DNA of 62,737 nucleotides from Verrucomicrobiota bacterium (GTDB taxonomy: Bacteria; Verrucomicrobiota; Verrucomicrobiia; Limisphaerales; UBA1100). The stretch lies in contig JASLKQ010000006.1 of NCBI GenBank assembly GCA_030747505.1, positions 1-62,737 of the forward strand. The letters run 5' to 3'. The notes below the pieces were generated by a model. The model saw only the letters and a program-made list of their open reading frames with translations. It had not been told where the DNA came from and did no database searches. Below, one piece after another: positions 52,636 through 57,578 of the stretch (the stretch's first letter is position 1; every line of letters starts with the position of its first letter). The position numbers were made by a program, and so were the translations under genes.

Positions 52636-53721
52636 GTGAGTTACCCAGCCTTGTTGATAGCTGATAATCCGGCCTGTGAGTCTACCCTGGCAACATTGAC
52701 GGTCCTTGAGCGTCTTGTAATCGCGACTCACAAAGCCGGGGCCAAGACGATCACAATCGTCCATTCTGGAAAACCTCCGGACTTGGCACACGCCAACAGA
52801 CTGAATATCGCTTACAAACTAACCGAAACAGTCCCACCCTTGCATGAACCCACTCTGCTTTTGGCAGGGAACTTGGCCGCGCAGGAAGCGGATCTCGCCC
52901 GGGTACTGAGCAAGAAGGGCCGACTGTATACTCCAGCCCGGGAGCCGCTACCCTGTGGTGTGGCCATTGAATGGGCTGACGAGCTTGATGCCTCCTTGCC
53001 TCAGCACCCCAAAATCGAGGCCTTCGGTGTTGGCCAAGTGGTAAAAGACAGCCTTAGCGCAATTCAAGCCGAGGATGCTTTATGGGACACCATGGGGAAG
53101 GAAACCGACAGCGTTGTTGATCACAACTTCAACCGTCCCATTGGACGCGCCATGTCAAAAGCCCTCATCCATACATCTCTTTCTCCAAATGCCGTGTCCG
53201 TGATAGGCACAATCATCGGTGTCCTTGCCGCATGGTGTTTCACCCACGGCGAAGCGCACCTGATGATCTTGGGAGCCCTATTGTTGCAGCTCTCTGCAGT
53301 AATCGATTGTGTTGATGGAGACATAGCCCGGATTCTACACAAAGAAACTAAAGCCGGCAAATGGATCGATCTGGGAGGAGATCAGCTGGTGCATCTGCTG
53401 CTTATCACAGGCATAGGAGTGGGGCTATACCGCATGACGGAACAAACCGGGCCGACCTTATGGCTCGGGTTGGGGGCAGCACTCGGCGTGGTGATGTCGT
53501 TCCTAACCATTCTGCGAGCAGAACAAAGCCCCCTCCCTCTTCCTCGTCTAAAAAAATTCCTCTCCAAAACCGCCAACCGTGATTTTTCCGTGCTCCTGAT
53601 TGTCTTAGCCATTGTGGAACGCGTGCAATGGTTTCTATGGATCGCCTTCTTGGCTGTGCATATATTCTGGCTCTACGGCGCCTGGCTGCGATGGCAGGAT
53701 GAGCAGGAGCAGTCCCAATAA
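52636..53721 (+). CDS. CDP-alcohol phosphatidyltransferase family protein with N-terminal extension
   Basis: The 361-residue protein has the CDP-alcohol phosphotransferase motif D-x2-DG-x2-AR-x8-G-x3-D-x3-D in DCVDGDIARILHKETKAGKW with the following DLGGDQ, and several helices after it. The first ~150 residues are soluble and not helical-membrane, with no Rossmann or nucleotidyltransferase motif I could confirm. The architecture, a soluble domain followed by a CDP-alcohol domain, resembles bifunctional inositol-phosphate cytidylyltransferase/DIPP synthases but lacks clear cytidylyltransferase signatures. It starts at GTG (52636). It makes either a phospholipid or a phosphodiester solute. Confidence 0.8.
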   Translation: MSYPALLIADNPACESTLATLTVLERLVIATHKAGAKTITIVHSGKPPDLAHANRLNIAYKLTETVPPLHEPTLLLAGNLAAQEADLARVLSKKGRLYTPAREPLPCGVAIEWADELDASLPQHPKIEAFGVGQVVKDSLSAIQAEDALWDTMGKETDSVVDHNFNRPIGRAMSKALIHTSLSPNAVSVIGTIIGVLAAWCFTHGEAHLMILGALLLQLSAVIDCVDGDIARILHKETKAGKWIDLGGDQLVHLLLITGIGVGLYRMTEQTGPTLWLGLGAALGVVMSFLTILRAEQSPLPLPRLKKFLSKTANRDFSVLLIVLAIVERVQWFLWIAFLAVHIFWLYGAWLRWQDEQEQSQ

Positions 53722-53970
53722 AAAATCCCCGTGATCCCTTCTTTTCGCGGCCGGGCTGGAGCTTTTTGTTGGTTTATTCAGCGGACTGGTTGGAGCGATA
53801 TCCTTAGAACTTGGATGGCTCTTTGCTCAGACTAGGGGCAGGGGAGGCGAAAGGAGCTGGAATCCTCATCCGGCCCCGCCCTGTAAACCACAATCTCTCA
53901 AACTCAAGCTTGCGAAATAATAAATTACCAAGCAACATTCAGAACTCCCTCGTTGGACTAATTGCAAAAG
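53722..53970. other. Intergenic region before the MlaA-hydrolase gene
   Basis: This 249-bp region has no convincing gene. The 83-codon ORF starting at 53811 is in another frame of the mlaA start and is disregarded. GC-rich segments with possible pairing (for example GGGGC at ~53836 with GCCCC-type sequence at ~53874) may fold into a leader, but I could match no known element. Confidence 0.3.
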
Positions 53971-55785
53971 ATGTTTTTGCGTACCTACATCCTAATATTG
54001 CTTCTGTTTTCAGTTGGCTGTGCCAGTTGGCAATCGGATTCTGCCTTAAAGGATCTGCCTGAGCCGTCTCACCCGGAAGACGTGCAGCTCCTGCTCCAGA
54101 CTGCTCCAGACCCTTTAGAGCAGATGAATCGTGCGTTCTTTGCGCTAGATAAAACGCTTTTTACCTATGCTCTGGAACCCATATGGTCCAGCTACAACGC
54201 AGCGGTGCCTCAAAAGGCACGAAAGGGCATTCGGCACTTCAGTGACAACCTTAAATATCCAGTCCGACTGACAGGCAATCTCCTGCAAGGCGAGTGGAAA
54301 AATGCCGGCACGGAAACCAAGCGGTTTTTTATCAATACCACCGTAGGGATACTGGGCTTTTCCGATCCAGCCGCCGACAAGTATAACATATATCTGGCTG
54401 AGGAAGATCTCGGGCAGGCACTTGGCAGATGGGGCTGGAAAGAATCGGCTTACCTCCATGTACCGGTTTGGGGAGCCTCCTCTCCCCGTGATGTCGTTGG
54501 AGGAGTCGGAGCAATCGCGCTGAACCCGTCCTCCTGGGTTTATGGAGCTGGCGCAACCTTCAGGTTCAACGATAAATCGTTCAAATCCGAGTCAACCCGC
54601 AAGTTGCTTGCCGTGGAGCTTGACCCCTATTCACTCAACAAACTTTATTACAGCCGGAGGCGTGCTATTGAAATCGCCAACACACAGCCTGCCATGGAGG
54701 GAGAAGACACCCCGCAAACCCAGACCCTGCAGGCAATATCCAATCGTCCTCAGGATGGCAAGTTCCCCAACAAAGCCGGAATAATAAAGGTTCAGCCCAC
54801 AGGCTTTCGCAAACCTCTCCCTGCCTCAGTGTGGATGCAGTCCAAGCCCGCTCCCATCGCGTTTGTTATCCCCGGACTGGGTGGTCACCGGCTCGGCGCT
54901 CAGGCCCTCGCCCTGGCAGAACTAGCATACCAAGAGGGATATCACGTGGTTTGTTTCAGCAACAACCTAAACTGGGAGTTCATCCTAGCCGCTCCAGCGG
55001 ATTACACTCCTGGATATCTGGATGATGACCTCCAATATCTCCGCCAAATCCACGAAGCGACCATCGTAAAGATCGGAGCAAAGGCAAAAGGGAAGCCTGC
55101 GGTAATGGGCTTTTCCATGGGAGGTTGGTACACTCTCAATTTGGCGGCCACCGGTGCCCCTGAGGAGTATTCCAACGCACTGGCCATTAATCCCCCTCTG
55201 GATCTTAACACGGGCTTGCGCATGCTCGACAAACTGTTTCGCAAACCCGCAGGGGAAGAAAATCTGCAAGCCATCAAGGAATCAGCCCTGGTTAAGTTAT
55301 TGGCAAGTCAGCAGCGTTCCGCTGAGCAAAACATCCTCCCATTCAGTGATCAGGAAGCCTCTTACATTATCGGGCTGAGCTACCGCCTTACCCTCACACA
55401 AACCATTATGGCGAGTCTGGATATCACTCCCAGTTCCAAATCTCACAAAAAAATAGGCACCTTGGGCTGGGAAGATTATTACAGTAAAATTGTTGCTCCG
55501 GCCCTAGCCGCACGGAAAATTAACCCTGAAGCGCTGGATCGTGCCAGCAACCTCCGCACGCGTGAAGCGGGTTTAGCTGCAGCAAAAAACTTGAAACTGG
55601 TGTTAACGGGCAACGATTTTCTCCTTACCCAGGAGGACCTCGCATGGTTTCGGAAACGATTCCCAGACAATCGCACCGTCTACACTGAAACCGGGGGGCA
55701 CATGGGGCAATTGTGGAAGCCCAAGGTGCGGAAGTCGATACGCGCGGCCATTCGGAGGAATCAGTCTGTTTCCTCGTCCAATTAA
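53971..55785 (+). CDS. MlaA (VacJ) lipoprotein fused to an alpha/beta hydrolase
   Basis: The ~604-residue protein begins with a lipoprotein signal (RTYILILLLFSVGCASW). Residues ~40-225 match MlaA: PDPLEQMNRAFFALDKTLF, NLKYPVRLTGNLLQGEWKNAG, FFINTTVGILGFSDPA, EDLGQALGRWG. MlaA extracts misplaced phospholipids from the outer membrane. A ~50-residue linker follows, then a second domain from ~280 to the end with alpha/beta-hydrolase hallmarks: FVIPGLGGHR, nucleophile GFSMGGW, Asp in LTGNDFLL and His in GGHMGQLW. MlaA is normally a ~230-residue single-domain protein. The ORF starts at a TTG at 53962, but the ATG at 53971 is better. Linking lipid extraction with a possible lipase is inference. Confidence 0.85.
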   Translation: MFLRTYILILLLFSVGCASWQSDSALKDLPEPSHPEDVQLLLQTAPDPLEQMNRAFFALDKTLFTYALEPIWSSYNAAVPQKARKGIRHFSDNLKYPVRLTGNLLQGEWKNAGTETKRFFINTTVGILGFSDPAADKYNIYLAEEDLGQALGRWGWKESAYLHVPVWGASSPRDVVGGVGAIALNPSSWVYGAGATFRFNDKSFKSESTRKLLAVELDPYSLNKLYYSRRRAIEIANTQPAMEGEDTPQTQTLQAISNRPQDGKFPNKAGIIKVQPTGFRKPLPASVWMQSKPAPIAFVIPGLGGHRLGAQALALAELAYQEGYHVVCFSNNLNWEFILAAPADYTPGYLDDDLQYLRQIHEATIVKIGAKAKGKPAVMGFSMGGWYTLNLAATGAPEEYSNALAINPPLDLNTGLRMLDKLFRKPAGEENLQAIKESALVKLLASQQRSAEQNILPFSDQEASYIIGLSYRLTLTQTIMASLDITPSSKSHKKIGTLGWEDYYSKIVAPALAARKINPEALDRASNLRTREAGLAAAKNLKLVLTGNDFLLTQEDLAWFRKRFPDNRTVYTETGGHMGQLWKPKVRKSIRAAIRRNQSVSSSN

Positions 55786-55793
55786 CGCACTTC

Positions 55794-57578
55794 ATGTCAT
55801 TGCTTAACCTGAGCGATGTATCCTATTCATGGGATGGAGACCCTCTTCTGGAAGCCGTCACGCTCAATCTTGAAGCAGGCGAGCACATCGGTTTGGTGGG
55901 CCGCAATGGGTGTGGGAAATCCACTCTGCTCAAACTGTTGGAAGGAGCCATTGTCCCCGACCGAGGAGAGGTTCATCGTGCGGGGAACTTGTGTGTGCGG
56001 CGCCTGACTCAGGAAGTTCCTGATGGAGTTGAACAAACAATTGAGGAAATCATCGGGAAAAATCTTGATTACCCTGAAGAGGAAATTTGGCGTAAAGACA
56101 AGGCTTTGGGGGGCATAATGAGGCAAATGCAGCTGGAGGGAAGCAGCCTTTTCTCCTCCCTTTCCAGCGGCATGAAACGCCGAACACTGCTGGCTCAGGC
56201 CATTGTTGATCATCCCGATGTCCTGCTTTTGGACGAACCGACCAACCACCTTGATATTGAGTCCATCACCTGGCTCGAGGGATATCTAAAGGCCTACACA
56301 GGCACCCTGCTGTTTGTCACGCACGACCGAGCATTCCTCCAGGCATTGGCCACCCGCATTCTCGAAGTGGACCGCGGCCGGCTCTTGGACTGGAGCTGCG
56401 ACTACCAAACATTTCTTCAACGCAAACAAACCACCTTGGAAGCGGAGGACAAGCATAACGCGAATTTCGACAAAAAACTCGCTCAGGAGGAAGTGTGGAT
56501 CCGCAAAGGCATTCAGGCTCGGCGCACCCGCAACGAGGGTCGTGTCCGTGCGCTGAAAAAAATGCGTGCAGAACGTCAACAACGCCGCGAACGGGCGGGT
56601 AATGTCCAAATGCAGGCTTCAGAAGCAGAGAGGTCAGGCCAGCTGGTCGTAGAAGCAAAAAACCTATCTTTTACCTATGGAGCCGAGCCTGTTGTAAGAG
56701 AACTTTCCACCTTAATCACTGCCGGAGATAAGATTGGAATCATCGGCCCCAATGGCGCGGGTAAAACAACCCTCATCAAACTCCTCCTCGGAGAGATCCG
56801 ACCTCAGGCAGGCTCTGTGCGGCGGGGAACCAAGCTGGAAACAATTTACTTCGACCAGCTTCGCGACCAGATTAAGGATGAACTCAGTATCATCGAAAAT
56901 GTTGCTGATGACCGTAAAACGATCACCATCAATGGACGCACCAAAAACGTGTATAGTTATCTTGAGGACTTTCTGTTCACGCCGGATCTGGCGCGCAAGC
57001 CGGCAAGCACCCTCTCAGGAGGAGAGCGAAACCGACTGCTACTTGCCAAGCTATTTCAGCAGCCGGCAAACCTGATTGTAATGGATGAACCCACCAACGA
57101 CCTGGATGCTGAAACCCTGGAGCTTTTAGAAGAGGTGATCGCCGCCTTTGCGGGCACGCTATTACTCGTCAGTCATGACCGCGCGTTTCTGAATAATGTC
57201 GTGCAAAGCATCCTTGTCTTCGAAGGGGAGGGGAGGGTTAAGGAGTACGCCGGGGGATATGACGACTACCTTGCCCAGAGCAAAACCGGTTCCAAGGGCA
57301 GGCCCAAGCCGGAAAAGAAAAAACCGCAAAAGCTTGCGGCCAGTTCTGAAAAGAACAAGAAACTTACCTATAAGGACAAACTCCTACTTGAGTCATTACC
57401 AGATAAGATCACCAAACTGGAAAACGAACAAGAGGAGCTCCAGCGGCAAATCAATGACCCGGATTTTTTCAAAAAGCCTCTTGAGGAAACTCGTTCCACA
57501 ACGACCCGTCTGGAAACCATTGAAACCAAGCTGATCGAAATCTACGCCCAATGGGAAGAGCTTGATGCCCGGGCCTGA
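55794..57578 (+). CDS. uup: ABC-F family ATPase (Uup-like)
   Basis: The ~594-residue soluble protein carries two ABC cassettes. Cassette 1 has Walker A GRNGCGKSTLL and LLLDEPTNHLDIESI; cassette 2 has GPNGAGKTTLIKLL, LSGGERNRLLLAKLF and VMDEPTNDLDAETLE. A charged linker between them (residues ~230-305) is the P-site tRNA interaction motif region. The C-terminal ~90 residues are a Lys/Glu-rich coiled coil, typical of Uup, which binds DNA or the ribosome. ABC-F proteins act on ribosomes rather than in membranes. The ORF track begins 27 codons upstream in the mlaA end; the ATG at 55794 starts the normal MSLLNLSDVSYS. Confidence 0.93.
   Translation: MSLLNLSDVSYSWDGDPLLEAVTLNLEAGEHIGLVGRNGCGKSTLLKLLEGAIVPDRGEVHRAGNLCVRRLTQEVPDGVEQTIEEIIGKNLDYPEEEIWRKDKALGGIMRQMQLEGSSLFSSLSSGMKRRTLLAQAIVDHPDVLLLDEPTNHLDIESITWLEGYLKAYTGTLLFVTHDRAFLQALATRILEVDRGRLLDWSCDYQTFLQRKQTTLEAEDKHNANFDKKLAQEEVWIRKGIQARRTRNEGRVRALKKMRAERQQRRERAGNVQMQASEAERSGQLVVEAKNLSFTYGAEPVVRELSTLITAGDKIGIIGPNGAGKTTLIKLLLGEIRPQAGSVRRGTKLETIYFDQLRDQIKDELSIIENVADDRKTITINGRTKNVYSYLEDFLFTPDLARKPASTLSGGERNRLLLAKLFQQPANLIVMDEPTNDLDAETLELLEEVIAAFAGTLLLVSHDRAFLNNVVQSILVFEGEGRVKEYAGGYDDYLAQSKTGSKGRPKPEKKKPQKLAASSEKNKKLTYKDKLLLESLPDKITKLENEQEELQRQINDPDFFKKPLEETRSTTTRLETIETKLIEIYAQWEELDARA

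Follow-up and report, generated by a model that had tools for sequence, protein, structure and literature searches.

We found that the window, by which we mean the whole 62,737-nucleotide stretch of verrucomicrobial DNA that was analysed, carries a gene that on sequence grounds is a single-chain MlaZ–MlaY fusion. This assignment is made because its hydrolase part is homologous to MlaY of Pseudomonas aeruginosa and the two catalytic triads are in register. Taken together, sequence and structural models make it likely that the protein combines an outer-membrane channel with a periplasmic hydrolase, which would cut mislocalised phospholipids before any carrier receives them. Coupling of extraction to hydrolysis in one chain is the best-supported reading, since it agrees with the two folds, the invariant triad, the exclusive linkage of the hydrolase to MlaA, and the homology to MlaY and MlaZ. 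The mechanism is already known in split form; what looks new is that a one-chain version extends across the phylum and alternates with MlaC.

Architecture and predicted fold

The gene is a single unbroken frame of 604 amino acids on the plus strand, running from an ATG at 53971 to a stop codon ending at 55785, and a TTG at 53962 in the same frame is an alternative start (Table 1). On inspection, the N-terminus, MFLRTYILILLLFSVGC, matched the lipobox pattern with Cys17. A lipobox was also found in the nearest relatives (L037–L047), whereas most of the more distant fusions have an ordinary signal peptide, as does P. aeruginosa MlaZ, whose sequence has no lipobox. The lipid anchor is thus a trait of the window clade and some others. 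In Pfam searches, the MlaA model (PF04333) matched residues 47–232 far above its cut-off (E = 1.5e-49, profile positions 3–193 of 195), and the Abhydrolase_6 model (PF12697) matched residues 299–578 slightly under its curated cut-off (E = 5e-5). No other MlaA gene is present in the window genome.

Table 1 Features of the fusion gene and its neighbours, with positions in the window.
Feature	Position	Strand	Details and basis
mlaZY fusion gene	53971..55785	+	604 aa; ORF list and sequence; architecture recurs in relatives
Lipoprotein signal peptide	53971..54021	+	Lipobox FSVG-C, Cys17; sequence pattern
MlaA (MlaZ-type) domain	54109..54666	+	aa 47-232; PF04333; fold match 5nur_B
Interdomain linker	54667..54780	+	aa 233-270; ordered in AlphaFold model
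Alpha/beta-hydrolase (MlaY-type) domain	54781..55746	+	aa 271-592; PF12697, models, PDB hydrolases, MlaY homology
Ser382, nucleophile	55114..55116	+	GFSMGG/GFSMG elbow; invariant 78/78; aligns with MlaY Ser187
Asp549, acid	55615..55617	+	GNDF; invariant 78/78; aligns with MlaY Asp388
His577, base	55699..55701	+	GGHMG; invariant 78/78; aligns with MlaY His415
CDP-alcohol phosphatidyltransferase (phospholipid synthesis type)	52636..53721	+	PF01066, E 1.1e-12; 250 bp upstream, co-oriented
ABC-F ATPase	55794..57578	+	Pfam; 8 bp past the fusion stop

With an alignment of 58 fusions as input, AlphaFold modelled the full protein as two confident folds (mean pLDDT 91.8, pTM 0.90), joined by a well-ordered linker region (a block of pLDDT 87–94 over residues 231–270). 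In Foldseek comparisons, the MlaA half superposed on 5nur_B, from a porin–MlaA complex, with a TM score of 0.85 and an r.m.s.d. of 2.3 Å at 28% identity. The hydrolase half, modelled alone at a pLDDT of 91.5, found its closest solved folds among esterases, thioesterases, an acetyltransferase and ABHD6, that is, among general alpha/beta-hydrolases; by sequence, PDB matches were weak and no close solved relative of the hydrolase was found. A helical cap is inserted in the modelled domain at about residues 411–537. Ser382 lies at the elbow where strand 377–381 turns into helix 383–394, Asp549 follows the strand 541–546 and His577 the strand 569–572, which places Ser, Asp and His in the canonical order.

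These results agree with a preliminary description of this DNA, which had proposed an MlaA domain and a hydrolase in one polypeptide. The three motifs that it had taken for a Ser-Asp-His set, GFSMGG, GNDF and GGHMG, are real, and their catalytic residues are invariant in the 58 aligned fusions as well as in all 78 hydrolases compared, including split genes, proteobacterial sequences and P. aeruginosa. It had also named a non-hydrolytic second domain as an outcome that would overturn its claim; the alpha/beta-hydrolase fold is confirmed by the AlphaFold models and the Foldseek matches. In L060, L073, L081–L083 and L094, the hydrolase has an insertion right after the nucleophile region that splits the profile match.

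When 146 genomes from the order of the window were searched, 39 held homologues, most of which matched nearly the full length of the query in one open frame. Their identity to the window protein reaches 66% within the genus and falls to about 35% in other families. With only the hydrolase as query, named genomes yielded 66 loci. In 64 of these, both domains share one frame, which a contig end truncates in some cases; of the remaining two, one is a fragment at a contig end and one (L103) is a copy broken in several frames. As the loci were assembled independently, the recurrence of the same frame in 64 of the 66, together with the same-genus relative at 66% identity, excludes a frameshift or assembly join, the artefact by which the preliminary description might have failed. 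It is therefore hardly credible that the gene is an assembly artefact or a degenerate two-gene fusion without joint function: nothing at the window speaks for this reading and the broken L103 relative is all that does, whereas the intact frame recurs in dozens of genomes besides the named loci, the triad is invariant, and the two-domain model is confident. L103 itself, from a Pedosphaera MAG of Lake Baikal, reflects either sequencing error or a pseudogene. A viral or phage origin was rejected, as no relative was present among the viral contigs searched.

Homology to the MlaZ–MlaY pair

P. aeruginosa has a second pathway, in which phospholipids mislocalised to the outer leaflet are taken out by the MlaA homologue MlaZ (PA3239) and passed for destruction to the lipase MlaY (PA3238) (PMC11131202, PMC12569750, PMC11977310). 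The triad of MlaY is Ser187, Asp388 and His415, and MlaY and MlaZ together rescue an E. coli pldA mutant (PMC11977310). We located this pair in a P. aeruginosa record (L112, NZ_CP137508.1), where a hydrolase gene is followed 3 bp later by a VacJ/MlaA gene. The hydrolase carries S187, D388 and H415, as published for MlaY, and is thus MlaY. The record is labelled a plasmid, and the pair lies there beside chromosomal-type genes and a recombinase. MlaY-type and MlaA-family genes are adjacent in Skermanella as well as in P. aeruginosa.

BLASTP comparison of the window hydrolase with P. aeruginosa MlaY gave an E value of 8e-21 at 26% identity, with Ser382, Asp549 and His577 aligning one-to-one with the MlaY triad, and the profile of the hydrolase family matched MlaY at 3e-66. 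Because identity is only 26%, the substrate of the window hydrolase could differ from that of MlaY. The enzyme might be a lysophospholipase, an acyl-transferase or another lipid or thioester hydrolase, to which MlaA would offer no more than an anchor in the membrane or a place of delivery; its substrate would then not be surface phospholipids. The range of closest solved folds (thioesterases, esterases, an acetyltransferase and ABHD6), the weak PDB sequence matches and the low identity to MlaY all leave room for this reading, which we nevertheless consider unlikely, since the hydrolase is linked exclusively to MlaA across the phylum and is homologous to MlaY, whose mutants in P. aeruginosa lose cardiolipin degradation (PMC11977310).

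Distribution and descent in Verrucomicrobiota

We searched one set of 289 genomes of the phylum for MlaA, MlaC, the hydrolase, MlaD and PldA, which were present in 115, 32, 83, 269 and 24 genomes, respectively. Every genome with the hydrolase also has MlaA (83/83). Of the hydrolase matches, 79 were fused to MlaA and 7 adjacent to it, and one, a fragment, lay on another contig. Among the MlaA genomes, 83 have the hydrolase and 31 have MlaC, with both in a single genome. MlaC thus occurs in 1 of the 83 hydrolase genomes versus 30 of the 32 other MlaA genomes, where it lies next to MlaA. This exclusivity was significant at the level of genomes, genera and families (Fisher p = 4e-24, 9e-15 and 2e-6), a series in which shared ancestry is reduced, not removed. 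PldA occurred in none of the 83 hydrolase genomes, although it is concentrated in one family. Where MlaC is present, it tends to be accompanied by a neighbouring short MlaD of about 150–250 aa.

The window genome, a 91%-complete draft, gave no match to MlaC (PF05494), and its MlaE, MlaF and a 399-aa MCE (MlaD-type) protein are encoded in one cluster (L107, G000:C253:29264-32062). The MCE protein has a long helical-looking tail, like the elongated MlaD of Veillonella. Outside the main set, MlaC is present in 3 of the 10 fusion genomes reached through the named loci (two proteobacterial genomes and one Planctomycetota MAG), so the exclusivity of MlaC and fusion is not universal; P. aeruginosa also has MlaC besides mlaY–mlaZ (PMC11131202, PMC12569750, PMC11977310). 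A class of MlaA lacking any partner was considered and rejected. There were two candidates only: the MlaA of G414, which is truncated at the end of its contig and groups within the fused clade, and that of G417, which lies beside an RND-type transporter. The latter gene, without MlaC or MlaY, overlaps the RND/MMPL-type transporter gene (L131, G417:C1:4932500-4937000), possibly a third kind of partner.

Fusions occur across much of the phylum, and next to the fused clade stand split pairs, in which mlaZ and mlaY are neighbouring genes. In the tree of MlaA domains, the fused domains form one clade (support 98/99), which is adjoined by the split Verrucomicrobiota pairs in the order mlaZ then mlaY. 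In the hydrolase tree, the fused domains likewise form one group (99/93). The simplest reading of these sequence relationships is that neighbouring genes fused once and that the fusion spread vertically, perhaps also horizontally. Proteobacterial MlaZ, encoded in the order mlaY then mlaZ, is placed on the MlaC-linked side of the MlaA-domain tree (96/94, on long branches), and the MlaZ–MlaY partnership may therefore have been assembled more than once. A genome of the same order as the window has a split mlaY–mlaZ pair in the proteobacterial order with an IS-like transposase (L032, G133:C203:1-5000), likely a proteobacterial contamination.

Separate-gene orthologues, which the preliminary description had taken as evidence against its proposal, do occur, in 7 Verrucomicrobiota genomes and in Proteobacteria. 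They are neighbouring genes, however, and thus support the coupling of extraction to hydrolysis instead of refuting it.

The genes next to the fusion are conserved over a narrower range. Among the loci tested, the phosphatidyltransferase adjoins the fusion in L037, L038, L041–L044 and L047, and the ABC-F ATPase, which is probably co-transcribed with the fusion gene, is kept only in the nearest relatives L037, L041 and L042. The phosphatidyltransferase has an N-terminal extension of about 170 aa; towards its C-terminus, it resembles inositol-phosphate transferases (bifunctional IPCT/DIPPS). Its presence raises the alternative that the fusion acts with this neighbour to trim or remodel lipids that have just reached the outer membrane and does not remove mislocalised ones. 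A co-oriented gene of the phospholipid-synthesis type next to the fusion in the window clade, and the MlaE, MlaF and long MCE proteins of the window genome, would fit such a role. We regard it as quite improbable, since the phosphatidyltransferase link is limited to the near clade among the loci tested while the fusion is phylum-wide. Neither neighbour is needed for the MlaZ–MlaY argument.

Proposed mechanism and comparison with known systems

In the mechanism that we propose for the single-chain MlaZ–MlaY protein, a mislocalised phospholipid of the outer leaflet would enter the MlaA-type pore and move inwards. The tethered hydrolase would then cut it on the periplasmic side, with no handover to MlaC, and the lysolipid and fatty-acid products would be recycled. 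An outer-membrane location, a phospholipid substrate and direct handover from pore to active site are the assumptions of this scheme. The presumed role is maintenance of outer-membrane asymmetry, with degradation taking the place of MlaC shuttling. For the window genome, in-place degradation of surface lipids probably replaces MlaC shuttling. For much of Verrucomicrobiota, Lentisphaeria-type lineages included, we see about an even chance that a single-chain extract-and-degrade machine has replaced return through MlaC and is the only MlaA-dependent route to asymmetry.

How lipids pass from the MlaA channel to a partner is not fully settled, and the coupling of MlaZ to MlaY is a proposal based on genetics. 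The natural one-chain version offers a ready-made object for structure determination and reconstitution, in which the lipid path is fixed in cis. That the phylum divides almost perfectly into genomes with MlaA and MlaC and genomes with MlaA and the hydrolase suggests that one and the same extracted lipid may meet either of two fates. The freely readable papers searched, in which the original study of MlaYZ in P. aeruginosa (Guest et al. 2023, doi 10.1073/pnas.2302546120) is represented by later accounts, held no description of the fusion or of its alternation with MlaC. In a survey of Mla systems that used the same Pfam models, the words 'fusion' and 'hydrolase' are absent from the text (PMC10665443).

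With the classical MlaA of E. coli, Klebsiella and relatives (PDB 5nuo, 5nur, 8i8r, 8i8x), the window protein shares the MlaA domain and fold and, in the window clade, the lipobox; it differs in its additional C-terminal hydrolase and in a genome without an MlaC partner. The MlaA–MlaC pairs of Verrucomicrobiota have a homologous MlaA domain, yet theirs is a short single-domain MlaA beside mlaC, usually with a short MlaD, and belongs to a different part of the tree.

PldA (OMPLA) is the outer-membrane phospholipase A, a beta-barrel protein (PF02253). What the window protein shares with it is only the proposed job of destroying phospholipids that reach the outer leaflet; the alpha/beta fold of the window enzyme is unrelated to the beta-barrel, and profile searches gave no PF02253 match in the window protein or the window genome. 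A hybrid of MlaA and PldA is thus ruled out, as there is no beta-barrel phospholipase signal and the enzyme half is MlaY-like. From the combined MlaA/PldA function of the preliminary description, the MlaA part and, as a proposal, a PldA-like purpose stand, but not a PldA-like enzyme. Its proposed coupling of extraction to hydrolysis is upheld as a reading, although the principle was already known from MlaZ–MlaY.

The closest known system is the MlaZ–MlaY pair of P. aeruginosa, which likewise joins an MlaA-family protein to a homologous alpha/beta-hydrolase, encoded together and with triads that align. In P. aeruginosa, two genes in the order mlaY–mlaZ exist beside a full MlaA/MlaC/MlaBDEF system, whereas in the window one chain has the order MlaZ–MlaY, its hydrolase is 26% identical, and the fusion is the only MlaA of a genome without MlaC.
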